Source of the DNA: Maribacter caenipelagi
Lineage (GTDB): Bacteria; Bacteroidota; Bacteroidia; Flavobacteriales; Flavobacteriaceae
Length of the DNA stretch: 64,000 nucleotides
NCBI RefSeq assembly: GCF_004364175.1
Contig: NZ_SNZW01000013.1
Span: 548,726 to 612,725, forward strand
Direction: 5' to 3'
Positions 1-64,000 of this stretch are shown one piece after another. Position 1 is the stretch's first letter, and each line of letters begins with the position of its first letter. The translations under genes and the position numbers were made by a program. The notes beneath the pieces were generated by a model. It was not told the origin of the DNA, did no database searches, and saw only the letters and a program-made list of their open reading frames with translations.

Positions 1-67
1 TGTTAGCTTGTGCTTGTACTAAGAAAGTAGAGAAGAAAAGAGCGGTTAAAATAATAATTGACTTCAT
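1..67 (-). CDS. Partial secreted small protein, tandem paralogue
   Basis: Only the first 22 codons are inside the window; the gene continues off the left edge. The visible residues form a complete Sec signal peptide (MKS, hydrophobic core, then VQAQA). They are almost identical to the start of the 86-residue protein encoded at 471-731. The two genes lie in the same orientation with colinear upstream DNA (constant offset of 664 bases), so this is one unit of a tandem duplication. The function is unknown. The mature part cannot be read here, so it is not possible to say whether the paralogues diverge after the signal peptide. Confidence 0.8.
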   Translation of the reverse strand, partial: MKSIIILTALFFSTFLVQAQAN

Positions 68-103
68 AATATTTGTTTTACACTGCTAAAGTACAGGGAT
101 GAA

Positions 104-155
104 TAAACATATTTTGAAGCACGTCGTTGGGCGCCATTTATCTATAGACGAATGG
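104..155 (-). promoter_or_regulatory. Putative promoter and palindromic operator, copy 1
   Basis: On the minus strand a -7-like element TATGTTTA lies at 104-111. It is a near match to the Bacteroidota consensus TAnnTTTG. An imperfect 22-base palindrome lies at 134-155, with outer arms CCATT/AATGG around a perfect TCTATAGA core. The palindrome centre is 37 bases upstream of the -7 centre, a position compatible with an activator site. The same arrangement recurs at 768-819, and a close relative of the palindrome occurs at 63627-63647. The regulator is unknown. Confidence 0.45.
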
Positions 156-470
156 TAAATTAGGTTCGGTTATTAACTTGTTGAGGTTTGGAATGTGTGG
201 TGAAAATTGTTGTTGGATATTCGCTCAGCATCCGTGAGTATTGATATGGTGGAGTATTTCAATTCTTATTCCGAAAAGTTACTGAAAACAATATACCAAG
301 ACCAGTGGTAGTTATTTGGAATTAAAAGCAGTAGGTAATGCGTTCAACTTGCCGGACTCGGTAATCTGTTATGAATTATGATTTGTTTTAAGACGAATTA
401 GTAAAAAGTAGGTTTTGGTAAGAAATGGTTAGGTATATGTTTGGGGCGAAAAGGGTGTTTAAAAATTGAA
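156..470. other. Intergenic region without recognised genes
   Basis: About 315 bases separate the upstream region of the first small secreted-protein gene from the 3' end of the second. I see no convincing reading frame, tRNA or strong terminator hairpin here. The stretch is presumably spacer left by the tandem duplication. Confidence 0.5.
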
Positions 471-731
471 TTAAGAAAGTTTAGCGTTGTTCATTTTTGT
501 TGTGAATTCTAAAGCCTTGATCACTCTGTTGTTTTTGTTCTTGTACAATCTTGCAACTTCGATTGTGTTTTCAGTTTCGATTGTTGGAACAGAAATATCA
601 TTACTTTCAATTGTTTGAACCATCTCTACTTGTGTAGTTTCGATCTCTAAAGAAACATTCTCGTTGTTAGCTTGCGCTTGTACTAAGAAAGTAGAGAAGA
701 AAAGAGCGGTTAAAAGGATAATTGATTTCAT
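471..731 (-). CDS. Small secreted protein, function unknown (86 aa)
   Basis: I do not recognise the family. Residues 1-21 are a clear Sec signal peptide ending in AQA, so the mature protein has about 65 residues and is exported. The mature N-terminal half is acidic and rich in Glu, Thr, Val and Ile (NENVSLEIETTQVEM). The C-terminal third is basic (ARLYKNKNNRVIKALEF). No cysteines or lipobox are visible. A second copy begins at position 67 and runs off the window edge, with duplicated promoter-proximal DNA. The palindrome shared with a polysaccharide locus at 63.6 kb suggests, as inference only, a surface or matrix-related role. Confidence 0.75.
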   Translation of the reverse strand: MKSIILLTALFFSTFLVQAQANNENVSLEIETTQVEMVQTIESNDISVPTIETENTIEVARLYKNKNNRVIKALEFTTKMNNAKLS

Positions 732-821
732 AATATTTGTTTTACACTGCTAAAGTACAGTGATGAACAAACATATTTTGCCGCTCATAGTCGGGCAGCA
801 TTTAACTGTAGACGAATGGTA
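665..821. repeat. Direct repeat of positions 1-157 (tandem gene duplication)
   Basis: Positions 665-821 align without gaps to 1-157, at about 90 percent identity by eye. The repeat covers the signal-peptide codons, the 5' untranslated region, the -7 element and the palindrome. The coding and -7 parts are best conserved. The spacer between the -7 element and the palindrome is the most diverged, while the palindrome itself stays similar, which suggests selection on the site. Confidence 0.8.
768..819 (-). promoter_or_regulatory. Putative promoter and palindromic operator, copy 2
   Basis: The minus strand carries TATGTTTG at 768-775, an exact match to the Bacteroidota -7 consensus TAnnTTTG, 37 bases upstream of the start codon. 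The palindrome at 798-819 keeps the half site ATTCGTCTA. Its centre is again 37 bases from the -7 centre. No TTG is visible at -33, which fits an activator-dependent promoter. A further half-site-like string, AATCGTCTACGG, follows at 828-839. Confidence 0.45.
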
Positions 822-886
822 AAAATCAATCGTCTACGGTTTATGTAGATGTAAAATGTATTCGGAATTTAAAGGGTTGATGGGGG

Positions 887-52287: not shown

Positions 52288-52411
52288 AGATATTAAAAAA
52301 TACTCGTCGGCATAGAATTACCATTCACCGACAGTAAACTGCTACTCACCTATATTGATCATTTTATAAGGTATAAATCTTTGACATTTGTTGAACTAAT
52401 AAAAATGACCT

Positions 52412-52813
52412 ATGGACATATTACTTATAGAAGACGATTTAATAGAAGTTATGAAGTTGAAACGTACGGTTTCTAAACTTAACTTAAAGCATTCAATTAT
52501 AGAAGCAAAAAATGGTGAAGAAGCTTTAACCTATTTAAGGTCTGGCGAAAAATTGCCAGATATCATTCTCTTAGATTTGAATATGCCAAGAATGAATGGT
52601 ATTGAATTTCTTGAGATTTTAAAGGCAGATGAGTTACTTCAATACTTACCTACAATTATTTTAACTACCTCAGAAAATAGAGCAGATTTGTTGAAATGCT
52701 ACCAAGCTGGTATTGCAGGTTATGTAATTAAACCATTGAAATATGAAGATTACGAGTACAAGTTAAACGCTGTTTTAGAGTACTGGAATGTTAATCAACT
52801 AGTAAAAGGCTAA
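52412..52813 (+). CDS. Single-domain response regulator
   Basis: The 133-residue CheY-like receiver has no output domain. The acidic pocket is IEDD at residues 6-9, with phosphoacceptor D55 in ILLDLNMPRMNG, Thr in TTSENRA, and Lys in YVIKPLKYEDY. It lies 78 bases upstream of the H-NOX gene, with a promoter between them. It is a likely phospho-acceptor for the kinases downstream, but whether it shares their transcript is uncertain. Confidence 0.93.
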   Translation: MDILLIEDDLIEVMKLKRTVSKLNLKHSIIEAKNGEEALTYLRSGEKLPDIILLDLNMPRMNGIEFLEILKADELLQYLPTIILTTSENRADLLKCYQAGIAGYVIKPLKYEDYEYKLNAVLEYWNVNQLVKG

Positions 52814-52838
52814 CAAAAAAGCTCATTTCACAACATTT

Positions 52839-52871
52839 TTGCGTAATTACGTATTAATTTTCCTACGTTTG
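52839..52871 (+). promoter_or_regulatory. Promoter upstream of H-NOX operon
   Basis: TTG at 52839-52841 and TACGTTTG at 52864-52871 are separated by 22 bases, matching the flavobacterial consensus TTG-N17-23-TAnnTTTG. The element ends 20 bases before the H-NOX start codon. This is the best-matching promoter seen in the window. Confidence 0.65.
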
Positions 52872-52891
52872 AATGTGATAAAAATATTCAA

Positions 52892-53434
52892 ATGAAAGGA
52901 ATTGTATTTACTGAGTTTTTAGAAATGGTCGAATCTGAATTCGGTTTAGAGACTGTTGATAATATTATTGAAAAATCAGATTTGCCTTCTCAGGGCATAT
53001 ATACGTCTGTAGCTACTTACGAATTTAACGAAATGGTAGCTTTGATTACCCAGCTGAGTGAAGAAGTGGATTTACCGGCCGGAGATTTAATTTACGCATT
53101 TGGGCTATATCTGTTCTCAAGTCTAAAAAATGCACACCCAGAAGTTATACAAAGTTACAGATCACCAATAGGGTTATTGTACTCTATAGAAGATCATATT
53201 CATGTACATGTAAAAAAACTTTATCCAGAAGCAGAATTACCTACGTTTAAGATACTAGAAAAGACCGATAATTCTATTTCTATGATATATTCTTCGTCAA
53301 GAGGATTATATAGATTGGCACATGGTCTTATTGAAAAAGCATTTGAACATTTTAACGGTAAAGCCGATATTTCATATGAACTTCTTAAGGAAGATGGTAC
53401 CGAAGTGAAATTTGATGTAGTGCAACATGGATAA
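52892..53434 (+). CDS. H-NOX (heme nitric oxide/oxygen binding) protein
   Basis: This 180-residue stand-alone H-NOX domain opens with the typical MKGIVFTEFLEMVESEFG. The proximal heme ligand is most likely His104 (HIHVHVKKLYPEAELPTF), and the porphyrin-propionate motif YxSxR is Y133-S-S135-S-R137. Bacterial H-NOX proteins bind NO and regulate an associated histidine kinase or cyclase. The gene overlaps the following PAS kinase gene by eight bases, so that kinase is the likely partner. No distal Tyr was identified, which favours NO over O2 sensing, although this needs structural comparison. Confidence 0.94.
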   Translation: MKGIVFTEFLEMVESEFGLETVDNIIEKSDLPSQGIYTSVATYEFNEMVALITQLSEEVDLPAGDLIYAFGLYLFSSLKNAHPEVIQSYRSPIGLLYSIEDHIHVHVKKLYPEAELPTFKILEKTDNSISMIYSSSRGLYRLAHGLIEKAFEHFNGKADISYELLKEDGTEVKFDVVQHG

Positions 53435-55790
53435 TAAGGAAATTCGTCTCTTAAAAAAAGCCCTCGAACGCCAGAAAAAGGCGCGTAAACAGGCTGAGAG
53501 TATCTTAGAAGAAAAATCTAAGGAGCTCTATGATGTTACCAGTCATTTAAGAGAATCTAACAGTAAACTCGAAAATTTACTAAGTGAAAAAACATCTGAA
53601 TTAGATGGTATTTTTATAAATATTATCGATCCCTATGTAGTAACGGATCTACAATTCAATGTTATTAATATGAACAGATCTGCCAAAAATCTTTTGCAGT
53701 TTGATCATAACGATAAGCTTGTAAACCTTTCAAAATTTATACACCCAGATTTTTTCGAATATACACAAGAATCGATGCGGTCGATGATCGAGGTAGGAAG
53801 CTTAAAAAATTATCGTGCACAAATTATTCTTGAAGATGGTTCTGAAAAATGGATTCAGATAAACGCAAGTCTGGTATACGATAAAAATCAAAAACCTATT
53901 GCTGCTCAAGGTATAATTAGAGATGTTACTCAAGAAACAGAAGTAAAAAGACTTGTTGCAGAGCAAAAGGCGCAATTAGATATTATAGTTGAGAATTCTC
54001 CCTTAGGTATTGTTTTAGCGGTTGACGGTGTAATTCTTAAAACAAATAATACTTTTGTCGAAATGCTTGGTTATCAAGAAGGTGGGCTTAAAAATGTTTC
54101 TTTTAAATCAATATCAGAACCAGAAAATACAACAGATGCATTAAATCAACTAGATGAAATGTATGCTGGTAAAATTGAAAAATTTACCGAAATATGGAAA
54201 TTTAAAAGAAAAGATGGTTCGACCATAATGGGAAAAACCAGAATTTCAGCGATACATGACGATCATAGAAAAAAAGATTATCAGGTTGCTATAATAGAAG
54301 ATATTTCGCATCAATTAGAGGCAGATAGAAAACTACAAGCATCTCAAAATAGATTAACTGCTCTTATTTCTAATTTACAAACAGGTGTGCTTTTAGAAGA
54401 CGAGGAAGGTAAAATTGCATTGACCAACCAAAAGTTCTGTAATTTATTTCATATTAAAGAATCTCCAAAGAATATAATTGGTGTTGACTGTGCAGAATCT
54501 GAAGAAGAGTATAAAAAGTATTTTAAGAATCCAAAAGGTTTCGTTAGTAGAATAGAAGAAATTTTAGCTAAAAAAGAAACTGTTTTGGCAGATGAACTTG
54601 AAATGATCGATGGTAGAATTTTAGCAAGAGATTTTATTCCTATTGATAATGATGGTGATTACAAGGGGCACTTATGGGCTTATCAAGATATTACTATTTC
54701 TAAAAATTATCGAAAGAATTTAGAAACGCAACGAGAAAAGTATAGTAGTATTATTGCTAACATGAATTTGGGCTTGGTTGAGGTAGATAATGAAGATGTT
54801 ATTCAAATGGTCAATCAAAGCTTTTGTAACATGAGCGGCTTTACAAGAGAAGAACTTATTGGTAACGTGGCTTCTAAAACCATAAAATTCAAAGGGGATA
54901 ATATCATTGAAAAGAAAAATGAAAATAGATTAGGCGGGGTTTCAGAATCTTATGAGGTTGAGGTTTATAATAAAAACAATGGTATTATGCATTGGCTTAT
55001 TAGTGGAGCCCCAAGATATGATGATACTGGTGCCGTAATTGGTTCTATCGGCATTCACTTAGATATTACAGATCAAAAACTTTTAGAACTTCAAAAAGAA
55101 AAATTATTAAAAGATTTAGAGAACAGTAACCAAGGCTTACAAGAGTATGCCCATATCGTTTCTCATGACCTTAAGTCTCCATTAAGAAGTATCAGTGCTT
55201 TGGCAACTTGGCTAAGTGATGATTATAAAGATGTTTTAGATGAAGGTGGTAAGCAAAATCTTGAGCTTATGCAAGAGAAAGTAGCCTCTATGGATAAATT
55301 AATTCATGGTATTCTAGAATATTCTACTGCAAATAGTTCTGATTTAGATGATTCTAAAGTTGACCTAAATGAGGTAATAAACGATATCGGCGAGACCATC
55401 TATATTCCTGAGCACGTAAAATTGGTAATTCCTGAGACATTACCAATTATATTGGCAGATAGAATTAAAGTTCATCAAGTTTTTCAAAATATTATTGGTA
55501 ATGCTGTTGTGCATATCGAAAGAGAAGTCGGGCTTGTTGAAGTACTTTATAAAGATGATGGCGATTTCTGGCAATTTACTATCAGCGATAATGGGGTAGG
55601 TATACCAGAAGAGTATCATAAGAAGATTTTCGATATTTTTCAATCTATCGGAAATAATGAAAGGTCAACTGGTATCGGACTTTCAATTGTAAAGAAAATT
55701 ATTGATCGTTATCAGGGTAAAGTCTGGATCGATAGTGTGGTTGGAGAAGGAACCCAATTTCATTTTACTATAAAGAAAAACCATAACTAA
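53427..55790 (+). CDS. Multi-PAS sensor histidine kinase (H-NOX partner)
   Basis: The 787-residue soluble kinase begins with a coiled coil (about 1-60, LKKALERQKKARKQAESILEE). About four PAS modules follow (roughly 65-180, 185-300, 305-425 and 435-560), then HisKA with the phosphoacceptor H580 (VSHDLKSPLRS) and HATPase_c with SDNGVGIPEEY and GIGLSIVKKI. No transmembrane segment is present, so it acts in the cytoplasm. The gene overlaps the H-NOX gene, and its kinase core resembles that encoded at 56932-57990 closely enough to be a paralogue. Confidence 0.93.
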   Translation: MDNKEIRLLKKALERQKKARKQAESILEEKSKELYDVTSHLRESNSKLENLLSEKTSELDGIFINIIDPYVVTDLQFNVINMNRSAKNLLQFDHNDKLVNLSKFIHPDFFEYTQESMRSMIEVGSLKNYRAQIILEDGSEKWIQINASLVYDKNQKPIAAQGIIRDVTQETEVKRLVAEQKAQLDIIVENSPLGIVLAVDGVILKTNNTFVEMLGYQEGGLKNVSFKSISEPENTTDALNQLDEMYAGKIEKFTEIWKFKRKDGSTIMGKTRISAIHDDHRKKDYQVAIIEDISHQLEADRKLQASQNRLTALISNLQTGVLLEDEEGKIALTNQKFCNLFHIKESPKNIIGVDCAESEEEYKKYFKNPKGFVSRIEEILAKKETVLADELEMIDGRILARDFIPIDNDGDYKGHLWAYQDITISKNYRKNLETQREKYSSIIANMNLGLVEVDNEDVIQMVNQSFCNMSGFTREELIGNVASKTIKFKGDNIIEKKNENRLGGVSESYEVEVYNKNNGIMHWLISGAPRYDDTGAVIGSIGIHLDITDQKLLELQKEKLLKDLENSNQGLQEYAHIVSHDLKSPLRSISALATWLSDDYKDVLDEGGKQNLELMQEKVASMDKLIHGILEYSTANSSDLDDSKVDLNEVINDIGETIYIPEHVKLVIPETLPIILADRIKVHQVFQNIIGNAVVHIEREVGLVEVLYKDDGDFWQFTISDNGVGIPEEYHKKIFDIFQSIGNNERSTGIGLSIVKKIIDRYQGKVWIDSVVGEGTQFHFTIKKNHN

Positions 55791-55801
55791 TAAGATGTAA
55801 G

Positions 55802-56932
55802 ATGAAAATAGTACAAGGAATTAAAAAACCAAATGAGTCTTTTATAATTAAAGATGCTGTTGCTCTTAAAGAACCTTTAGTACTGGTTTTTGGTAATAGA
55901 TATATGTTAGAAAGTAATCAGATATATGACGAGGTTAATACGTTATTTCCAGACGGTCATATCGTTTTTGGTACCACTTCGGGTGAGATTATAGATGATA
56001 ATGTGTTAGACGGATGCGTTGTATTAACTGCTATTGAATTTGAGAAGAGTTCAATTTTGGTAAAAAGAAGCAACGTAGCAGATTTTCATAATGAAGATAA
56101 AAAACTTGGAGAGCGCTTAATTGCTGAATTCCCTAAAGAAAATTTAAAGCATCTATTTGTAATATCAGAAGGTAGTACTGTAAATGGTAGTGCGCTTATA
56201 GAGGGTTTAGAAAATATGGAAAATACGAGTTTTGGACTCTCTGGCGGACTATGTGGAGATGATGATCGTTTTGAGCGAACATTGGCATCTTACAATGAAA
56301 ACCCAAAAGAAGGGGAAATAGTAGCCATAGGTTTTTATGGTGATACCTTAGAAATTACAAGTTCTAATTATGGCGGTTGGACCTCTTTTGGTCCAGAACG
56401 TATTATTACAAAATCTAAAGGAAATCTACTTTATGAGCTAGATGGTAAGCCTGCTTTAGATCTTTACAAAACCTATTTAGGTGAGAAAGCAGATGAATTG
56501 CCGAAGTCGGCATTGCTCTATCCGTTAAGTGTTAAGGCAACCGAAGACTCAGATCCTTTAGTACGAACTATACTTAATATTGATGAAGTTGAAAATACAA
56601 TGACACTGGCAGGTGACGTTCCTGAAGGGTCTAGAGTACAGTTAATGATGTCATCGGTCGATGATATTGCTAATGGAGCTTCTTATGCAGCAGAACTCGC
56701 TATGGGTGGCAGAAAGAATTCTCCAGAGCTGGCTTTATTGATCAGTTGTGTTGGTAGAAAGTTGGTGATGGATCAACGAACGGAAGAGGAAATTGAAGAA
56801 GTTAAAGCTGTTGTAGGCGATAATACAGTAATAAGTGGCTTCTATTCTTACGGCGAAATGGCACCATTTAGTGGTCAAGATAGTTGTAAATTGCACAATC
56901 AGACCATGACTCTAACCTTATTTAGCGAATAA
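55802..56932 (+). CDS. FIST domain protein
   Basis: The 376-residue protein has the FIST N-terminal (about residues 25-220, VFGTTSGEIIDD, FGLSGGLCGDDD, VAIGFYGDTL) and FIST C-terminal domains (about 225-360, LALLISCVGRKLVM and ISGFYSYGEMAP). FIST domains are found in signalling proteins and are thought to bind small ligands such as amino acids. No kinase domain is fused here, so signal output must pass to a partner, most likely the kinase whose start overlaps its stop by one base (TAATG). Confidence 0.93.
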   Translation: MKIVQGIKKPNESFIIKDAVALKEPLVLVFGNRYMLESNQIYDEVNTLFPDGHIVFGTTSGEIIDDNVLDGCVVLTAIEFEKSSILVKRSNVADFHNEDKKLGERLIAEFPKENLKHLFVISEGSTVNGSALIEGLENMENTSFGLSGGLCGDDDRFERTLASYNENPKEGEIVAIGFYGDTLEITSSNYGGWTSFGPERIITKSKGNLLYELDGKPALDLYKTYLGEKADELPKSALLYPLSVKATEDSDPLVRTILNIDEVENTMTLAGDVPEGSRVQLMMSSVDDIANGASYAAELAMGGRKNSPELALLISCVGRKLVMDQRTEEEIEEVKAVVGDNTVISGFYSYGEMAPFSGQDSCKLHNQTMTLTLFSE

Positions 56933-57990
56933 TGCATTCTCTGTTAACAAGACAAATTCGAAAATATTTACCTGAAGACCTAAAAGAGCATCCAGAAATA
57001 GGAAGCTTTTTAGAAGCTATTGAAAAATCGTATGAGAATTATGAAGATAAATTCTCTATGCTTCATAGAGCTTCTACAATAAGTTCAGATGAACTTTTTG
57101 AAGCCAATAAAAGATTACAGAAAGAGGCTTTGCAACAAAAGAGTATTCTTTTTTCTTTAGAAGAGGCTATTCGTAGTTTAAGAGAGAATTTAAATGATGA
57201 AAAGGATGTAAAGATTCAGGACGAGTTTAATACAGAGCAGCTAGCATCTTATATAAGTAATTTGGCATCGCAGGTTTCTGCCATGACCATAGAAAAAGAT
57301 AAACTTGTAAGAAATTTAGAAAATCAGAATGAATCTTTGAACAATTATGCACAAATGGTATCGCATGATTTAAAATCTCCTATACGAAATATCAATGCGT
57401 TGATGAGTTGGATAATGGAAGATGAAAAAGAGAAATTTTCTGAAACCAGTAAAGAAAATTGCACTTTGGTATCTCAAAACCTTACCAAGATGGATAAGCT
57501 TATAAGTGGTATTCTAAAACACGCCACAATGGGTGAAACCGAAGAGCATAGGGTAACGTTCAGTTTAGAAGATAGTCTTAAAGATGTCGAAAGAACGATT
57601 TATGTACCTGAAAATATAACCTTTGAGTATGATGAAGAATTGCCAGAAATGTTCTTTGAAAGAGCACGGCTAGAGCAGTTGTTCATGAATTTATTTACTA
57701 ATGCTGTAACGGCAACTGAACATGTAGAAAAAGGTGAAATCAAAATCGGATACCAACCAGATGACACCTATTGGAAATTCAGTGTTTCAGATAATGGAAA
57801 AGGAATTCCCGAAAAGCATCAAAAAGGAATTTTTGAAATGTTTAAAAAGTTAGAGACAGCTAATAATGCTACTGGCATCGGACTTGCAATTGTTAAGAAA
57901 ATTGCAGTACTTTATGAAGGCGATGTTCGGTTAGAATCAAAAGAAAACGTTGGAACTACGTTTTATATCACATTAAAAAAGAATTCATGA
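56932..57990 (+). CDS. Soluble histidine kinase
   Basis: The 352-residue kinase has a long helical/coiled-coil N-terminus (about 1-130) without PAS or transmembrane segments. The HisKA box follows, with H145 in MVSHDLKSPIRN, and then HATPase_c (SVSDNGKGIPEKH, TGIGLAIVKKIAV). It resembles the kinase core of the PAS kinase in the same operon. Having no input domain of its own, it probably senses through the FIST protein encoded immediately upstream. The Hpt gene overlaps its 3' end by four bases. Confidence 0.92.
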   Translation: MHSLLTRQIRKYLPEDLKEHPEIGSFLEAIEKSYENYEDKFSMLHRASTISSDELFEANKRLQKEALQQKSILFSLEEAIRSLRENLNDEKDVKIQDEFNTEQLASYISNLASQVSAMTIEKDKLVRNLENQNESLNNYAQMVSHDLKSPIRNINALMSWIMEDEKEKFSETSKENCTLVSQNLTKMDKLISGILKHATMGETEEHRVTFSLEDSLKDVERTIYVPENITFEYDEELPEMFFERARLEQLFMNLFTNAVTATEHVEKGEIKIGYQPDDTYWKFSVSDNGKGIPEKHQKGIFEMFKKLETANNATGIGLAIVKKIAVLYEGDVRLESKENVGTTFYITLKKNS

Positions 57991-58307
57991 TAGAACAACC
58001 TAACCTTAATTATGTAGACGAACTTGCCGGTGACGATATTGCTTTTAGAAATCAATTTCTTGATATTATTAAAAACGAGTTTCCGTTAGAAAAGGAAGAA
58101 TATTATGGTCATGTAAAAAATACAAGAGTAAAAGAAACAGCCGAAATAGTTCATAAGCTAAAGCATAAGTTCAATATTTTAGGAATGGAAAATTCTTACA
58201 AGCTTGCAGTTGCTTATGAAATGGAATTATTGGATGGCAAGCACGATAGTCAATCTAAATTCGTTGAAGTATTAGATACTATTGAAAAATACATTAAAAC
58301 AATATAA
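57987..58307 (+). CDS. Histidine phosphotransfer (Hpt) protein
   Basis: The 106-residue all-helical protein has an Hpt phosphohistidine motif at H56 (AEIVHKLKHKFNILGM, the usual HxLKG with His in place of Gly). It relays phosphoryl groups between receivers in multistep phosphorelays. The start overlaps the preceding kinase gene (ATGA) and the stop abuts the LytTR regulator gene, so it is the physical and probably functional link between them. Confidence 0.9.
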   Translation: MIEQPNLNYVDELAGDDIAFRNQFLDIIKNEFPLEKEEYYGHVKNTRVKETAEIVHKLKHKFNILGMENSYKLAVAYEMELLDGKHDSQSKFVEVLDTIEKYIKTI

Positions 58308-59018
58308 ATGAACTGTATTATAATCGATGATGAAGCCACGGCTAGACTAGTTGTAAGGCAACTATGTTCAAAAATACCTGAGCTCGATGTTATTGAAGAA
58401 TTTGACAATGCCATTTCTGCAATCAAATTTTTAAATCAACAGAATATTGATGTTATTTTTCTAGATATTCATATGCCAGGTTTTAGTGGTGTCGATTTTA
58501 TACAAACACTAAAAAATCCACCTAAAGTGGTTATGACTACTTCAGATACAGATTTTGCAATAGCTGCTTATGAATATGAATGTATCGTTGATTATTTAGT
58601 GAAACCGATTACGTTAGAGCGTTTTGAAAAAAGTATAGAAAAAATTAAGAATACTTATGCTAAAAAGCCACAGGCTCAAGAAGCAACACAACAAAATTCA
58701 TCTGAAGGTGAAGATTTGTATATTAATATTGACCGAAGGTTAATTAAATTGAAACTCAATGAAATTTTGGTTATCGAGGCCAAAGGTGATTACATTGATG
58801 TTAAAACAGAAAAAGAACACCATAGGGTACATACTACCTTGAAAAAAATAAAAGAAAAATTACCTGAAAAGTTATTTCTTCAAATACACCGATCCTATAT
58901 TATCAATTTTACAAAGATTATTGATATTGAAGATAATAGCGTGCTAATAGCTAAAAATGTGGTACCCATTAGTAGGTCTAACCGTCCAGAATTAATGAGA
59001 CGATTAAACTTGCTTTAA
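58308..59018 (+). CDS. LytTR family response regulator
   Basis: The 236-residue regulator has a receiver domain (IIIDDE, phosphoacceptor D53 in FLDIHMPGFSG, Lys in VDYLVKPITLE) and a C-terminal LytTR DNA-binding domain from about residue 130 (IEAKGDYIDVKTEKEHHRVHTTL, LQIHRSYIINFTKI). It is the DNA-binding output of the H-NOX operon, with its start directly following the Hpt stop. Target sites are unknown. Confidence 0.95.
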   Translation: MNCIIIDDEATARLVVRQLCSKIPELDVIEEFDNAISAIKFLNQQNIDVIFLDIHMPGFSGVDFIQTLKNPPKVVMTTSDTDFAIAAYEYECIVDYLVKPITLERFEKSIEKIKNTYAKKPQAQEATQQNSSEGEDLYINIDRRLIKLKLNEILVIEAKGDYIDVKTEKEHHRVHTTLKKIKEKLPEKLFLQIHRSYIINFTKIIDIEDNSVLIAKNVVPISRSNRPELMRRLNLL

Positions 59019-59036
59019 GTTTTTCTAAAGTAATAT

Positions 59037-59450
59037 TCACCAATTTTCTTGATAAATCTTTTTGAATATTTCTGCTAGCTGAACTTTGTCTACTGGTTTT
59101 ACTACATACCCGGTAAGCTCTTCAAAATTAGAAGCTCTTATTACGTCACTATCGCGCATAGACGAACTAACCATGTAAATATTAATATTACTAATAATTT
59201 TTGGTTTTAGTTTTTTGAATTCGTTTAAAAAGCCCCAGCCATCTAAAAATGGCATATTAATATCTAAAAATATAACTTCAGGTAGTTCAACCTTTTCTTC
59301 AGTACATTTTGAGATATATTCAACAGCTTGTTCTCCGTCTGTAAATGTTGAAACCACCAATTCTTTTGATAATTGATGAATTGTTTTTTCCATTATATAC
59401 AAATACAGTTCGTCGTCATCGACCAGCAATATGTTCGGTTTTGTGTTCAT
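59037..59450 (-). CDS. Single-domain response regulator
   Basis: The 137-residue receiver has DDD at residues 11-13, phosphoacceptor D63 in IFLDINMPFLDG, and Lys in YVVKPVDK. It lacks an output domain. Its start overlaps the stop of the membrane kinase gene by four bases, so kinase and receiver form a cognate pair. It is convergent with the LytTR regulator gene, 18 bases apart. Confidence 0.92.
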   Translation of the reverse strand: MNTKPNILLVDDDELYLYIMEKTIHQLSKELVVSTFTDGEQAVEYISKCTEEKVELPEVIFLDINMPFLDGWGFLNEFKKLKPKIISNINIYMVSSSMRDSDVIRASNFEELTGYVVKPVDKVQLAEIFKKIYQENW

Positions 59451-61240
59451 TTTTCGAATATTAATTTAAATGTAGTTCCTTCTCCTACTTTACTATCTAT
59501 TGTTATTGTTGCATTAAGTGCTTCTAATTGAGATTTCACCAAAAACAACCCCATACCTTTACCAGATATGTTTCTATGAAATCTTTTGTAAAGTTTAAAG
59601 ACATTGTCGCCATGTCTATCTAGATTTAATCCTATGCCATTATCTCGTACATACAATACCTTTTGTTTATTTTCTAGTGCAGATTCAAATTGAATATGTG
59701 AATCAACATTGTCGCGTTTATATTTAATAGCATTAGATATGAAATTGTGAACGATACTTTGTAAATAGAATTTAGAATATGAAATATGGTTCCAAGCTGC
59801 TAAATTTAGTTGAACTTCAAAACCGGAATTATCTAAAAGTGTTTCTGTAAATTCATGTTTGACTTCGAGAATCAGTTCTTTAAGGTCTATATCGACTATC
59901 TTAATTTCCTTATTATCAAGAATAGCAACATAGTCGTTTATGTCTTCTGTGAGGTGGGTTATGCTTTTGGCTACCTTATCTAGCTTAGGTAGCAACTGAT
60001 TTAATAATTCTGGATTTTTTTCTTTCCGTATCATGTCAACAATTACAGACATACTGGTAACTGGTGAGCGTAGGTTATGTGAAATTAAATAGTTGAAATC
60101 GCTTAACTGCTTATTTTTGATTTCTAAGCTATTGTTCATTTCATTGACCATTACATTATTTTCTTCTAATTGGTCTTTGCTTCTAGTCAACAATATATTT
60201 TTACTTTCTAACTCTTTATAAAATTGTTCTTTTTCAATTCTATTTTTTAGGTAAATATGAGAAAATACGAATAAGCCAATAATTGAAATAATATTAAAGA
60301 TTAACAAGCTTTCAAATACAGGCTGTAATACGGCTTTTACTAATCTTGGAGGTATTTCCAAGGCCATAAGCCAATTAGAGGGGGTTACTATTTCTGTTGG
60401 TAAGTTAGATATAGAACCATACGTAAATGTTGCTCCATTTAATTTAATAGATTGCTGAGACCATATATGACCATTTTCAACAAAAGTGCTATCTCTAATA
60501 TGGGTTATTGCTTTGGTATTTAAAATACCGTCTATGGTACTATTTTTATTTCCAGATTCATAGGGTAAATCTTCTTTTATAGTACTTGAAGTTATAACTC
60601 TAAAATCCTCATCTAACAAATAAACATTTTTGTCTTCAACTGTGGATTTTATTTGGTCCAGAATTTTTTTCATTTTAAAATTGATGACCACTAACCCTAT
60701 TTGATTTTGCTCATTATCAAAAATAGGAGCCACAGTTCTAATTACTGGTTTATGCGGTTTTTCAATTTCTCCATTTTCTTTATTTAAGCTTATTTGAGAA
60801 AGATATATTTGATTTCTTTTTAATTGTAATCCTGCTTTTACATAAGGATGGTAATTTTTATTTTGTATGGCGCTAATTATAATAGAATCATTTCCAACCC
60901 GTTCAGCTCTAAAAAATTCTTTTCCTTCTAAATCTATAAAGCGAAATTGATCATAAGAAGTAATATCCTCAATAAGTTCTAGATAAGACCTTAAGAATGA
61001 GGAATGCTCTACTAAAGGATCAAAATTCTTTGGATATTTTAAAGTGGCCCAATAATGGGTATTACGCAAAAAAGAATGGCATTCTTCTTCAAAGGAAACT
61101 TTCTTCATCGTGTTTGCACGAATCTGACGTTCCATAATAGCTTCAATTTGTTTTGCCTTTTGGGAGTAATACAAAAAAAGGTTAAGCGCAAAAAGGGGCA
61201 CATAAAGGCCAATAAACATTTTAAAAACTCTCTTCCACAT
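59447..61240 (-). CDS. Membrane sensor histidine kinase with periplasmic dCache-like domain
   Basis: The 597-residue kinase has an N-terminal transmembrane helix (FKMFIGLYVPLFALNLFLYY), a periplasmic Cache/CHASE-like sensing domain of about 250 residues (FRFIDLEGKEFFRAERVG, VIRTVAPIFDNEQNQIGLVVINF) and a second helix near residue 310. A coiled coil follows, then HisKA with H388 in LISHNLRSPVTSM and HATPase_c with RDNGIGLNLDRHG. It binds an extracellular ligand, unknown here, and passes phosphate to the overlapping receiver. Confidence 0.92.
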   Translation of the reverse strand: MWKRVFKMFIGLYVPLFALNLFLYYSQKAKQIEAIMERQIRANTMKKVSFEEECHSFLRNTHYWATLKYPKNFDPLVEHSSFLRSYLELIEDITSYDQFRFIDLEGKEFFRAERVGNDSIIISAIQNKNYHPYVKAGLQLKRNQIYLSQISLNKENGEIEKPHKPVIRTVAPIFDNEQNQIGLVVINFKMKKILDQIKSTVEDKNVYLLDEDFRVITSSTIKEDLPYESGNKNSTIDGILNTKAITHIRDSTFVENGHIWSQQSIKLNGATFTYGSISNLPTEIVTPSNWLMALEIPPRLVKAVLQPVFESLLIFNIISIIGLFVFSHIYLKNRIEKEQFYKELESKNILLTRSKDQLEENNVMVNEMNNSLEIKNKQLSDFNYLISHNLRSPVTSMSVIVDMIRKEKNPELLNQLLPKLDKVAKSITHLTEDINDYVAILDNKEIKIVDIDLKELILEVKHEFTETLLDNSGFEVQLNLAAWNHISYSKFYLQSIVHNFISNAIKYKRDNVDSHIQFESALENKQKVLYVRDNGIGLNLDRHGDNVFKLYKRFHRNISGKGMGLFLVKSQLEALNATITIDSKVGEGTTFKLIFEK

Positions 61241-61453: not shown

Positions 61454-63514
61454 CTAATCTAAGTTTAATTTTTTGTGAAATAATGGTTTCTTCAAAAACA
61501 ACCATTTTGCTTTTAATCCGATTTCGGTAAACTCAAAACCTGCAGCAGTTGCCGAGGCAATATTACTATACTTCCCGTACACATTTAAACTGAAACGTGG
61601 TGAAAATTGATGCTGCACAGAAGCTTCGGCTCTAAAGATATTGGTGTTGGGGTCATCTTCTACTTTTTGAATACCTGTAGCCGCACTAACCATATAGGTT
61701 GTCTTTTCAGATATTTTACCACGTACATCTGCAAATAATTCAACAGCCTGGTATTTCTCGGGACTAAAATATATGGTAGGTACTTGGTCTTTAAAAGTTA
61801 TATACTGGTAATTGAGGCCCATTTTTAATGCAGGTTTGCGTAACACATTGTAATACAATGATGTAAAAAGTAAATTACGTACATTTTCATCACTCTGCTG
61901 GGTATGCATTAGTTGGGTATACCAACCAAAGTTAACATTGGTACCTAAATTATAATTTAAACCATAATGATTCTGTACAATTTCACGTTCAATTAATTCA
62001 GCGTTAAAACTCTGCACTTCTCTTTGATAACCAAGTGTTAAGTTCTGTAACTTAAAAGGTTGTAAATCTAATTTTATATCAATAACAGGTTGTGTATAGG
62101 CTTGGTCTAAAAATCTGGAGTTATTTAAACCTAATACGGATTTTAAAACCGTTTTAGGAAATAACTTGTACTGCAAACCCACTAATACTACATGCGAAGT
62201 TGCTTTATTATCGGTAACCGTATTTTCGGTAGATCTAAAGAAATAAGATACCGTACTTCTAAATTTAGTTGAAAAAGGTACATCTATCGTTGTATTTGTA
62301 AAAAAGGCAGTGTTATTTCCATTATCAAAGGTATAGGCTGCATGCTCTTCAATTGTAGGGGTATGCATTAAGTTCAGTTTATTGATAAAACCTTTAGCAT
62401 CTTTTTGATTTTTATAGAACTTTAATGTTTGGCTTGCCATATTGTATGCTGGTATAATCTTGTCAGATGCAAATAATGCATTTGCCTTACCTAAATTACC
62501 ATCAAATGAGGCACTGTCATTAACCAAAATTCTATCATAACTTTCAACACTAGATTTAGCATCACCGGTATATAGACCTAACGTTGCTTTTAGGGCTAAT
62601 ATCCAATTCTTATTGGGGTAATGAACTTCTAAACTATCAATCTTATTTCTAGCAGAAATAAACTTTCTGTTCCATATTAAGGCTTGTACAAACCTATCGT
62701 ATGTGCTTTCGGTAAGTTTTACATCATTAATTTTATCAACCTTTACCATTGCACTTTTAGAGATGATAAGAGCTTCTTTATCATTCTCATCTATATGTTC
62801 TGCCAATGCAATACCGTTTAGTGCGGTAATAGAATCTTTTGGGGTAGTTGCATATCTAACATACATACTTTTTGCCTTGTCTGCTTGTTTTATTATAAGA
62901 TACAGGTTCGCCAAGTTGATCAATACATCTTTATCATCAGGAAAATCTTCAAAAATCTTCTTTAATGTTTGCTCTCCTTTTCCATATTGCTGATTGTTTA
63001 CAAACTCGTTGGCATAACCCAATCGCATAAATTTTCTAGAAATTTTTGCACTTTCATTTTCGGGCTGAAGTTCTATTGCTTTTTCGACCCAACTTAAGGC
63101 TAATTTATACTCTTTTAAATTACTTAACGTGTTTGCATACCCTAATACCGCACCAAATTTCTTTGGAAATTTATCTACTAAATCGGCATATAAAGGTTTG
63201 GCTTGTTCATACTCTTTCGCCCATAAATAAGATTCGTTGTAATTAATTAAAATTTCAAAATCACCAGGGTAATCTTCTAATAGATCAGAAAATAAACCTG
63301 TTGCTTTTTGAGGTTCGCCACTTAAGCCAACTGCTCGACCATAACACAGCAATGCCGTTTTATTGTTTGTGTCTGTTTTAATGTATTCACCAAAAAAAAG
63401 TTCTGCTTCTTGAAAATCACCTTTTTCCAAAAGACCAAAGCCTTTGGTCATATCAGATTGTGCTTTCAAGAAAGATGAGGTTAAAAGAATAAGGAATACT
63501 AAATTACGAATCAT
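61454..63514 (-). CDS. TPR and outer-membrane beta-barrel protein
   Basis: The 686-residue protein has a signal peptide (MIRNLVFLILLTSSFLKAQS). About ten tetratricopeptide-like repeats follow (residues 25-380, for example LLEKGDFQEAELFFGEYIK and LINLANLYLIIKQADKAKSMY). The C-terminal 300 residues have the alternating pattern and aromatic ends of an outer-membrane beta-barrel (for example FRSTVSYFFRSTENTV, FSLNVYGKYSNI). The TPR-plus-barrel plan resembles PgaA/AlgK-type exopolysaccharide exporters and YaiO-like proteins. It diverges from a polysaccharide flippase gene, which supports a role in polysaccharide export or assembly. Confidence 0.8.
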   Translation of the reverse strand: MIRNLVFLILLTSSFLKAQSDMTKGFGLLEKGDFQEAELFFGEYIKTDTNNKTALLCYGRAVGLSGEPQKATGLFSDLLEDYPGDFEILINYNESYLWAKEYEQAKPLYADLVDKFPKKFGAVLGYANTLSNLKEYKLALSWVEKAIELQPENESAKISRKFMRLGYANEFVNNQQYGKGEQTLKKIFEDFPDDKDVLINLANLYLIIKQADKAKSMYVRYATTPKDSITALNGIALAEHIDENDKEALIISKSAMVKVDKINDVKLTESTYDRFVQALIWNRKFISARNKIDSLEVHYPNKNWILALKATLGLYTGDAKSSVESYDRILVNDSASFDGNLGKANALFASDKIIPAYNMASQTLKFYKNQKDAKGFINKLNLMHTPTIEEHAAYTFDNGNNTAFFTNTTIDVPFSTKFRSTVSYFFRSTENTVTDNKATSHVVLVGLQYKLFPKTVLKSVLGLNNSRFLDQAYTQPVIDIKLDLQPFKLQNLTLGYQREVQSFNAELIEREIVQNHYGLNYNLGTNVNFGWYTQLMHTQQSDENVRNLLFTSLYYNVLRKPALKMGLNYQYITFKDQVPTIYFSPEKYQAVELFADVRGKISEKTTYMVSAATGIQKVEDDPNTNIFRAEASVQHQFSPRFSLNVYGKYSNIASATAAGFEFTEIGLKAKWLFLKKPLFHKKLNLD

Positions 63515-63626
63515 TTAAAGTGAGATTAATACTACAAATACCTAACGGTAATTATTGCGATTTATTTGTCTTTTTCAATATTGTAAAGATAAAATTGACT
63601 TCACCGATATGGAAGTAAGATAATTG

Positions 63627-63647
63627 CCATTCGTCTATAGTAATTGG
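63627..63647 (+). promoter_or_regulatory. Palindromic site shared with small secreted-protein genes
   Basis: The 21-base string CCATTCGTCTATAG followed by TAATTGG is an imperfect palindrome. Its left half is identical over 14 bases to the complement of the site at 134-155, and it differs by one base from the site at 798-819. It faces the flippase gene in the same orientation as the earlier sites face their genes, 86 bases before the start codon. A CCCTT/AAGGG hairpin follows at 63662-63678. The regulator is unknown. Confidence 0.5.
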
Positions 63648-63733
63648 TTATCGACCTAAAGCCCTTAAAAAACAAGGGTAGTCTTCATGATATTTGATGT
63701 AGAACCAAGTCAATGTTGAGACTTAAAAAAAAT

Positions 63734-64000
63734 ATGATTATGACAGCAATTAGACTAGTACTACACAGAATTTCTCCGGAAAAATTATTTATGGGCAGCG
63801 TACTTGTTGTAAATGGGGGTAATTATCTATATAATCTTGTTTTGGGTAGACTACTTGGTCCGGCTGTGTATAGCGAGGCTGCTTTATTGATTACCTTATT
63901 ATTGGTGCTTTCTTTTTTAGGAATGACTTTTCAACTGGCTACAGCTAAATTTGCAATTTTGTTCAGCAATGATGATTGGCTTGCTTTAGAGCAAATACTC
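63734..64000 (+). CDS. Oligosaccharide/polysaccharide flippase, partial
   Basis: The gene runs off the right edge after 89 codons. The start may be the ATG at 63734 or at 63740. The visible part has LFMGSVLVVNGGNYLYNLVLGRLLGPAVYSEAALLI followed by a hydrophobic helix, characteristic of Wzx/MATE-like polysaccharide membrane proteins that flip lipid-linked repeat units. It is probably the first gene of an exopolysaccharide or capsule cluster extending beyond the window. Confidence 0.85.
   Translation, partial: MIMTAIRLVLHRISPEKLFMGSVLVVNGGNYLYNLVLGRLLGPAVYSEAALLITLLLVLSFLGMTFQLATAKFAILFSNDDWLALEQIL

Follow-up and report, generated by a model that had tools for sequence, protein, structure and literature searches.

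A predicted phosphorelay linking H-NOX and FIST sensors to a LytTR regulator in Maribacter caenipelagi and other marine Flavobacteriaceae

What does an H-NOX protein, a predicted heme-based sensor of nitric oxide (NO), control in a marine bacterium when its gene lies in one run with a second sensor gene, two histidine kinase genes and a DNA-binding regulator? This question is raised by a stretch of 64,000 nucleotides from Maribacter caenipelagi (contig NZ_SNZW01000013.1, positions 548,726 to 612,725 of the forward strand; hereafter, the window), in which an initial annotation, made from the letters of the DNA, had described nine signalling genes. Each of these open reading frames (ORFs) was re-found in its place, and all but one, the Hpt, have Pfam support. 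On the plus strand, a stand-alone receiver (52412..52813, PF00072) opens the operon and is followed by the H-NOX sensor (52892..53434, PF07700); a PAS-repeat histidine kinase without a receiver, termed HK1 and proposed to be the H-NOX partner (53427..55790); a stand-alone FIST_N/FIST_C sensor (55802..56932); a second, FIST-linked kinase, HK2 (56932..57990); a stand-alone histidine phosphotransfer protein, Hpt (57987..58307); and a LytTR response regulator (58308..59018, PF00072 and PF04397), the proposed output. From H-NOX to LytTR, neighbouring genes overlap or lie no more than 11 nt apart, as initially described. A receiver (59037..59450) and a Cache kinase (59447..61240), both on the minus strand and both Pfam-supported, converge on the operon. 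In the whole genome, one H-NOX gene and one FIST_C gene were found, both inside the operon. We propose that the operon encodes a dedicated phosphorelay of several steps, in which two inputs lead to a single transcriptional output and which tunes the surface matrix, a reading to which we give a probability of about 0.72.

Conservation of the operon

The gene order was followed in 299 genomes drawn evenly from the Flavobacteriaceae. H-NOX was found in 105 of these, compared with 27 of 395 genomes in a phylum-wide draw, and FIST_C in 85 of the 299. In 57 genomes a FIST gene lies within 12 kb of H-NOX, always on the same strand, in a count that leaves out the weakest-scoring FIST rows and covers 84 of the 85 FIST genomes. 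Neighbourhoods were taken in for 107 H-NOX and 13 FIST-only loci; 109 H-NOX rows, less two fragments and one locus (L142) that gave no H-NOX ORF in the gene calls, yielded 106 readable loci. The sample thus covers 13 FIST genes away from H-NOX, with tandem, low-scoring FIST clusters falling outside it. The loci from this draw and a second set of 80 named loci overlap.

The order receiver, H-NOX, histidine kinase, FIST, histidine kinase, Hpt and LytTR is present at 50 of the 106 H-NOX loci, and the same order minus the FIST gene and its kinase at 34. Counted singly, the members found were a receiver directly upstream (101 loci), Hpt (95), LytTR (90), FIST (57) and HK2 (56), and the complete set of receiver, HK1, Hpt and LytTR accompanies FIST in 51 of the 57 FIST-bearing loci. 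The H-NOX of the window shares 97% identity with its M. litoralis counterpart. Beyond the family, among H-NOX matches of which a minority had their neighbourhoods read, Roseivirga echinicomitans, a member of another class, carries the full order, and on a Persicobacter plasmid H-NOX is accompanied by nothing more than a kinase gene. Conserved synteny of H-NOX with FIST and LytTR, which the initial annotation had named as the test of its proposal, is thus seen across many genera and in Roseivirga, and the recurrence of the order speaks against a chance arrangement. The operon is widely conserved in marine Flavobacteriaceae, with the second sensor present in about half of the copies read.

Across relatives, median intergenic gaps lie between -4 and +9 nt, and in most of them the receiver gene runs into H-NOX, with a median gap of +1 nt (n = 101). 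In the window this gap is longer (52814..52891) and holds a probable, clade-specific internal promoter. The consensus promoter initially placed before H-NOX is present there as TTG-N22-TACGTTTG, with the -7 element TACGTTTG at 52864-52871; as a general feature of the operon it did not hold, the full consensus occurring in 1 of 36 receiver/H-NOX gaps longer than 30 nt. The shorter pattern TANNTTTG was found in 7 of the 10 Maribacter gaps inspected (14 loci carry the Maribacter name), and a sigma-70 scan of the region returned no excess of matches (52 versus 55.5 expected).

Two sensors, two related kinases and a FIST-linked module

The hallmark of H-NOX proteins is a proximal heme histidine together with a YxSxR motif. 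The window protein matches the HNOB domain (PF07700) at 134.5 bits against a cut-off of 25.5, and in 106 aligned rows H104 is kept in 105, Y133 in 106, S135 in 106 and R137 in 100, with all four present in the window copy, which is predicted to bind heme and NO. This copy has no cysteine, which excludes the zinc site that certain H-NOX groups build with cysteine ligands and fits group 1 of a published network, a group that takes in Cellulophaga (PMC7108781). The FIST protein matches FIST_N at 141.8 bits and FIST_C at 124.5 bits. Against the NosP equivalog NF041558 it reaches 55.1 bits, far below the cut-off of 450, and we therefore call it NosP-like rather than NosP. It is co-encoded with HK2, a kinase without a recognised sensor domain, as expected of NosP; such sensorless partner kinases are typical of NosP systems (PMC6769237, PMC12570481). 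Its ligand is likely to be NO or heme. Structural comparison was uninformative on this point, since the best PDB match of the predicted structure was human FBXO22; a PDB sequence search with the FIST profile gave one doubtful match only, and no heme ligand for NosP was found in the literature searched, which covered few subscription papers.

The two kinases had been described as having paralogous catalytic cores, and this is borne out. Among the 41 other kinase matches of the genome, HK1 is by far the nearest to HK2 (198 bits, 41%), the next scoring 91 bits (30%) and the convergent Cache kinase 42 bits (row 32 of 42). When the phosphotransfer helices alone were compared among 23 kinases, HK1 was again closest to HK2, scoring 174 against 102 for the runner-up and 73 for the Cache kinase. 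A tree of 186 kinase cores places 55 of 56 HK2 proteins and two dispersed FIST-associated kinases in one clade with a support of 95; like the other trees used here, it was built quickly and has long branches. Eleven further FIST-adjacent kinases, those of L170-L175 and L178-L182, branch outside this clade, and on that ground the idea that HK2 belongs to the usual type of FIST-PAS-kinase pair was rejected. Five of those loci (L170, L172, L174, L178, L181) carry stand-alone FIST/PAS-kinase pairs followed by a recurring set of genes of about 425, 75, 340, 532, 290 and 388 amino acids. As initially suggested, HK1 and HK2 probably feed one output, given their kinship and the complete relay in 51 of 57 FIST loci.

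FIST and HK2 behave as an optional cassette, a feature that the initial annotation did not have. It is absent from 38 of 89 complete relays, and on a concatenated tree of these 89 loci (51 with, 38 without) its distribution requires at least 18 changes, 7 of them forced by well-supported branches. Together with the single HK2 clade, these changes suggest an old gain followed by repeated loss, with transfer as the alternative. In two genomes a FIST-HK2 pair lies away from H-NOX (L176, L177), and both genomes also carry an H-NOX relay (L106, L128).

HK2 had been annotated as a kinase with no input domain. No Pfam input domain is indeed recognised in it; its first 130 or so residues (residues 1-130, 56932-57321), though, form a conserved module, and the remainder is the HK1-like core. 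A first module profile, trained on all 56 HK2 sequences, matched all 13 other FIST-adjacent kinases and no HK1, and also an Azospirillum kinase adjoining a FIST gene (E 1.6e-11). Its training rows include L069 and L118, which fail a profile built without them, and the count was redone with that cleaner profile. Among 187 kinase ORFs of locus set 1, 67 of 69 matches have a FIST gene next to them; training rows account for 54 of the 69, and 13 of the 15 others are FIST-adjacent. The two exceptions are L169, whose genome has a FIST gene elsewhere (L175), and a weak match to a protein of 100 amino acids. In locus set 2, with 141 kinase ORFs, 49 of 50 matches lie beside a FIST gene, 15 of them repeating set 1. 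A search of the HK2 N-terminus against plasmids found nothing beyond Azospirillum itself. The Burkholderia kinase NosK similarly has about 130 unassigned residues before its DHp domain and no recognised sensor domain (PMC12570481). HK2 thus looks chimeric, an HK1-like core joined to an N-terminal module that hardly occurs except next to FIST genes.

The slot occupied by FIST and HK2 can also hold divergent FIST subfamilies, which share 20-25% identity. The FIST of L118 belongs to another subfamily (20-22% identity to the window FIST) and its HK2 lacks the module (3.0 bits), and the core of that HK2 still shares 72% identity with the core from L126, the sister locus on the relay tree. Since L118, L069 and Roseivirga carry the alternative pair, the FIST sensor and the kinase N-terminus appear to travel together while the core is kept. 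An alternative FIST subfamily with a different HK2 N-terminus was observed in the same slot in L069, L118 and L352, two Flavobacteriaceae and Roseivirga, and it looks as if this pair has been exchanged between classes.

Relay steps and direct repeats

Phosphorelays alternate histidine and aspartate, and an Hpt needs an aspartate donor. Neither HK1 nor HK2 has a receiver domain, so the free receiver is the likely missing step. It fits as the aspartate donor because no other gene adjoins H-NOX so regularly and because the receiver's phosphorylation residues are kept, with D8, D9, D55, T85 and K107 present in at least 95% of rows. The receiver stands directly before H-NOX in 94 of 95 Hpt loci, and two genes up in the remaining one (L163); in Lutibacter citreus (L353) it lies between HK1 and FIST. 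It had been suggested initially that the upstream lone receiver may plug into the relay; it does appear to belong there, as a core member (101 of 106 loci) rather than an optional extra. Mesonia oceanica and Salegentibacter sp. R32 have the sensors, the kinases and one LytTR gene in one operon and a receiver-Hpt-LytTR trio elsewhere (L358/L373, L366/L372); finding the Hpt in this trio ruled out a joint loss of receiver and Hpt in these genomes.

For the Hpt, 42 of 48 aligned relatives match PF01627 at E <= 0.05 (best 2.4e-7), and H56, the proposed phospho-histidine, is invariant in all 48 rows. The predicted structure (predicted local distance difference test score 93.9) has a Foldseek match to the Hpt 3myf (template-modelling score 0.78, probability 1.00, E 0.02); a PDB sequence search with the Hpt profile found nothing significant (best E 0.11). 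The LytTR regulator has a receiver (66.1 bits) and a LytTR domain (66.7 bits), and D53 and K99 are kept in at least 95% of 90 rows. All four His-Asp-His-Asp stages are therefore present with conserved phospho-residues, the phosphotransfer itself being predicted, and kinase to receiver to Hpt to LytTR is the likely order. An additional receiver of 115 amino acids lies between Hpt and LytTR in L349 and L351.

The convergent receiver/Cache kinase pair, which had also been suggested as part of the relay, was seen after LytTR only in Maribacter loci (3 of 106 and 6 of 80 in the two overlapping sets). With the pair seen there only and the Cache kinase at row 32 of 42 in likeness to HK2, it was rejected as a relay component and is probably unrelated.

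The initial annotation also had nothing on a set of repeats that precede both the operon and polysaccharide genes. In the DNA ahead of the receiver gene, certain 8-mers are strongly over-represented and resolve into direct repeats, CCATTCGTCKACACTTA, with a 21-bp pitch. The core site of AlgR is CCGTTCGTC, and LytTR repeats lie about 12 bp apart (PMC4064291); the half-site found here differs from that core at one position in nine, and a pitch of 21 bp is what 12-bp spacing plus a 9-bp core would give. In the window, three such half-sites lie at 52298..52358 on the plus strand (best pair 52319-52358; matrix scores 19.8 and 13.5) and form the proposed site for the operon's own LytTR. A paired site precedes 86 of 90 LytTR operons and 5 of 11 operons without LytTR (p = 6e-5, descriptive, as are the other p-values for site enrichment, related genomes not being independent); here the 90 takes in L068, with an ORF between Hpt and LytTR, and not L163, the reverse of the member count given above. 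LytTR and repeats are jointly absent in six loci.

The site matrix was trained on regions upstream of the receiver, so that matches there are not independent of it, while matches elsewhere are. Over 2.04 Mb of loci it found 176 paired sites, compared with 0 in shuffled sequence, and the real matrix gave 211 positions versus 0-1 for ten column-permuted matrices. Eighty-two paired sites lie within 300 bp before a receiver gene. Another 81 lie near other gene starts, and 61 of these precede genes of four families, named from one or a few members each: STAS-like proteins (20), DUF6923/T9SS-tail (type IX secretion system) proteins (20), glycosyltransferases (14) and polysaccharide flippases (7). 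For these families, picked after the sites were seen, a site precedes 56 of 169 genes versus 24 of 1084 other ORFs (p = 3e-34). In ten genomes chosen for strong sites, 15 strict matches occurred in 9, all within 24 kb of H-NOX, with 0 in controls. In M. caenipelagi itself, the operon site is the best of 8 pattern matches in the genome, with 0 in a reversed-pattern control; the patterns were written after the operon and glycosyltransferase sites had been seen, which makes the ranks, though not the control counts, partly a matter of construction.

The LytTR regulator probably controls the surface-polysaccharide genes next door. About 1.1-1.3 kb beyond the window end lies a glycosyltransferase gene with its own site, and at the window's end a polysaccharide flippase gene begins (63713..64000, plus strand, PF13440; 424 amino acids, extending past the window) with a weak paired site 48 bp before it (63625..63664). 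Between this gene and the Cache kinase, the minus strand encodes a TPR protein with sub-threshold likeness to the cellulose-export domain BCSC_C (61454..63514); it has relatives in 56 of 106 loci, none of them preceded by a site. At the other end of the window (1-860, minus strand) there are apparent tandem genes for a small secreted protein of 86 amino acids (471-731, and one past the window start). A CCATTCGTC half-site lies upstream of each (paired scores 7.7 near 842 and 0.5 near 178), and these genes are possibly further LytTR targets. Elsewhere in the genome (L268, C2:508138), a paired site precedes a PAS kinase/receiver pair, a possible link to another two-component system.

In the mechanism we propose, H-NOX would set the activity of HK1 in response to NO bound at its heme, and the FIST protein would set that of HK2 through the N-terminal module. 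The two kinases, as paralogous phosphate donors, would both phosphorylate the stand-alone receiver, from which phosphate would pass to Hpt and on to LytTR. LytTR would then bind the AlgR-like repeats before its own operon, giving feedback, and those before nearby polysaccharide-assembly and secreted-protein genes, by which the relay would tune the surface matrix. Each of these steps, and with them the sign of the response, is a prediction.

Rival readings and known systems

Several observations weigh against this proposal. In one lineage with H-NOX, FIST and HK2 (L091, L097, L114), the receiver, both kinases and Hpt are kept, and the operon has neither LytTR nor repeats, so the Hpt there may serve something else or a distant regulator. 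(The same LytTR-less lineage is seen in L322, L325 and L326, partly the same genomes, with Pseudozobellia and Euzebyella among the named loci.) The sensor operons of Mesonia and Salegentibacter keep a LytTR gene of their own without Hpt, and because LytTR stays beside the kinases there, a direct step from kinase to LytTR is possible. Seven loci have the receiver and no Hpt (two of them, L098 and L133, on contigs shorter than 10 kb, and L092 degenerate), and the receiver may therefore also act alone. The Hpt of the window scores 14.4 bits against Pfam, under the cut-off of 24.6, so that its assignment leans on its relatives and its fold. As for the targets, four LytTR operons have no paired repeat and five operons without LytTR have one (L098, L102 and L133 on contigs below 10 kb); two-thirds of the target-family genes carry no site, with flippases at 7 of 50, and the DN1 genes have a site before 0 of 56. 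The window's own flippase site scores -7.7 against a threshold of 8, and of the eight genomic pattern matches, five are distant from the operon: they precede a kinase/receiver pair, the gene of a small membrane protein and genes without an assigned identity, and one of them falls within an ORF.

Some of these observations would fit two separate pathways sharing a transcript, with HK1 acting through the lone receiver, HK2 by another route and LytTR loaded otherwise: the receiver persists without Hpt in seven loci, FIST-HK2 stands apart from H-NOX in two genomes, and the split operons retain LytTR beside the kinases. We consider this improbable, since the kinase cores are paralogous and share their phosphotransfer helices, both genomes with a dispersed FIST-HK2 also carry the H-NOX relay, and FIST-HK2 brings no output gene of its own. 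More improbable still is that the direct repeats belong to a regulator other than this LytTR. The paired repeats before LytTR-less operons would allow it, in a comparison confined to the LytTR proteins of the operons; against it, three of the five exceptional operons are on short contigs, six loci lack LytTR and repeats together, and the half-site matches all but one position of the AlgR core at the 21-bp pitch expected of LytTR repeats (PMC4064291).

HK2 with FIST might act mainly as a brake by dephosphorylating the shared receiver, in which case the two sensors would oppose each other rather than add. NosK, with its comparable N-terminal stretch of about 130 residues before the DHp domain, is argued to be primarily a phosphatase in vivo (PMC12570481), and many relays persist without the cassette; HK2, for its part, retains HisKA/HATPase domains and an HK1-like core. 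On balance we think a brake rather unlikely. We hold it somewhat more plausible, though still doubtful, that FIST senses heme or another small molecule instead of NO and that the operon integrates two different cues. The score of 55.1 bits against the NosP cut-off of 450 points that way, as do the two divergent FIST subfamilies (20-25% identity) that can occupy the slot and a FIST-bearing phosphodiesterase that responds to heme (PMC8846402). Pointing back towards NO, the NosP model recognises every one of the 56 FIST sequences in alignment A2 (E <= 0.01), and the sensorless partner kinase is the usual companion of NosP (PMC6769237, PMC12570481).

The architecture we favour, with two kinases converging on a free receiver, resembles that of the Spo0F-Spo0B-Spo0A relay, in which several kinases feed a free receiver, a phosphotransfer protein and then a DNA-binding regulator. 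Spo0B is no true Hpt, whereas the phosphotransferase here has a predicted Hpt fold, and the output is a LytTR protein. The H-NOX/HqsK and NosP/VpsS pathways of Vibrio likewise have an NO sensor steering a sensorless kinase, with phosphate ending on the Hpt LuxU and biofilm as one of the outputs; their branches, however, were described in different species and use hybrid kinases with a quorum-sensing output, in contrast to one operon with a free receiver, Hpt and LytTR (PMC6769237, PMC8738867). In Shewanella oneidensis, HnoX-HnoK-HnoB/HnoD also places a histidine kinase and biofilm under H-NOX control, but its output is breakdown of cyclic di-GMP (c-di-GMP) and not a DNA-binding regulator (PMC8846402). 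The Burkholderia nosRPK operon likewise sets a FIST protein beside a kinase that begins with about 130 residues in which no sensor domain is recognised; it differs in having three genes, neither H-NOX nor Hpt, and a degenerate HD-GYP protein as output (PMC12570481). AlgR of Pseudomonas aeruginosa is, like our candidate output, a LytTR regulator of exopolysaccharide genes, although under a different input system and with sites that are not always 12-bp-spaced repeats (PMC4064291).

The initial annotation had regarded an H-NOX relay with a stand-alone FIST and a LytTR output as new. No description of the operon, its repeats or the HK2 module was found in the literature searched, nor any paper on H-NOX together with Flavobacteriaceae; H-NOX and LytTR are named together in PMC8396549 and, in passing and for another organism, in one further paper. 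Parts of the idea are already published: FIST genes near H-NOX genes appear in a neighbourhood-network figure (PMC8738867), and LuxU is the end point both of an H-NOX pathway and of a NosP pathway, in different Vibrio species (PMC6769237, PMC8738867). As far as surveyed in the accessible literature, published H-NOX pathways lead to c-di-GMP, quorum sensing and other two-component outputs. Among the ORFs of the 20-kb loci, a crude motif scan matched 0 GGDEF-like, 4 EAL-like and 1 HD-GYP-like patterns; no genome-wide search for c-di-GMP genes was made.

With rather less assurance than for the relay itself, at somewhat under even odds, we suggest a broader interpretation. Matrix control may be joined to NO sensing through transcription rather than c-di-GMP, and an HK1-like core behind a FIST-docking module may form a plug-in cassette: sensor and module could be lost or, as in L118, swapped together, with the core still signalling to the same receiver, and the module would serve as a general handle between FIST/NosP proteins and kinases across phyla. 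The module would then suggest where FIST/NosP proteins touch kinases, and the kinase chimera and natural sensor swap would provide a clean case of a second input added to an existing relay. For a large group of marine bacteria, a widely conserved relay whose last member is a transcription factor encoded next to polysaccharide genes would give a concrete and testable answer to the question of what H-NOX does.

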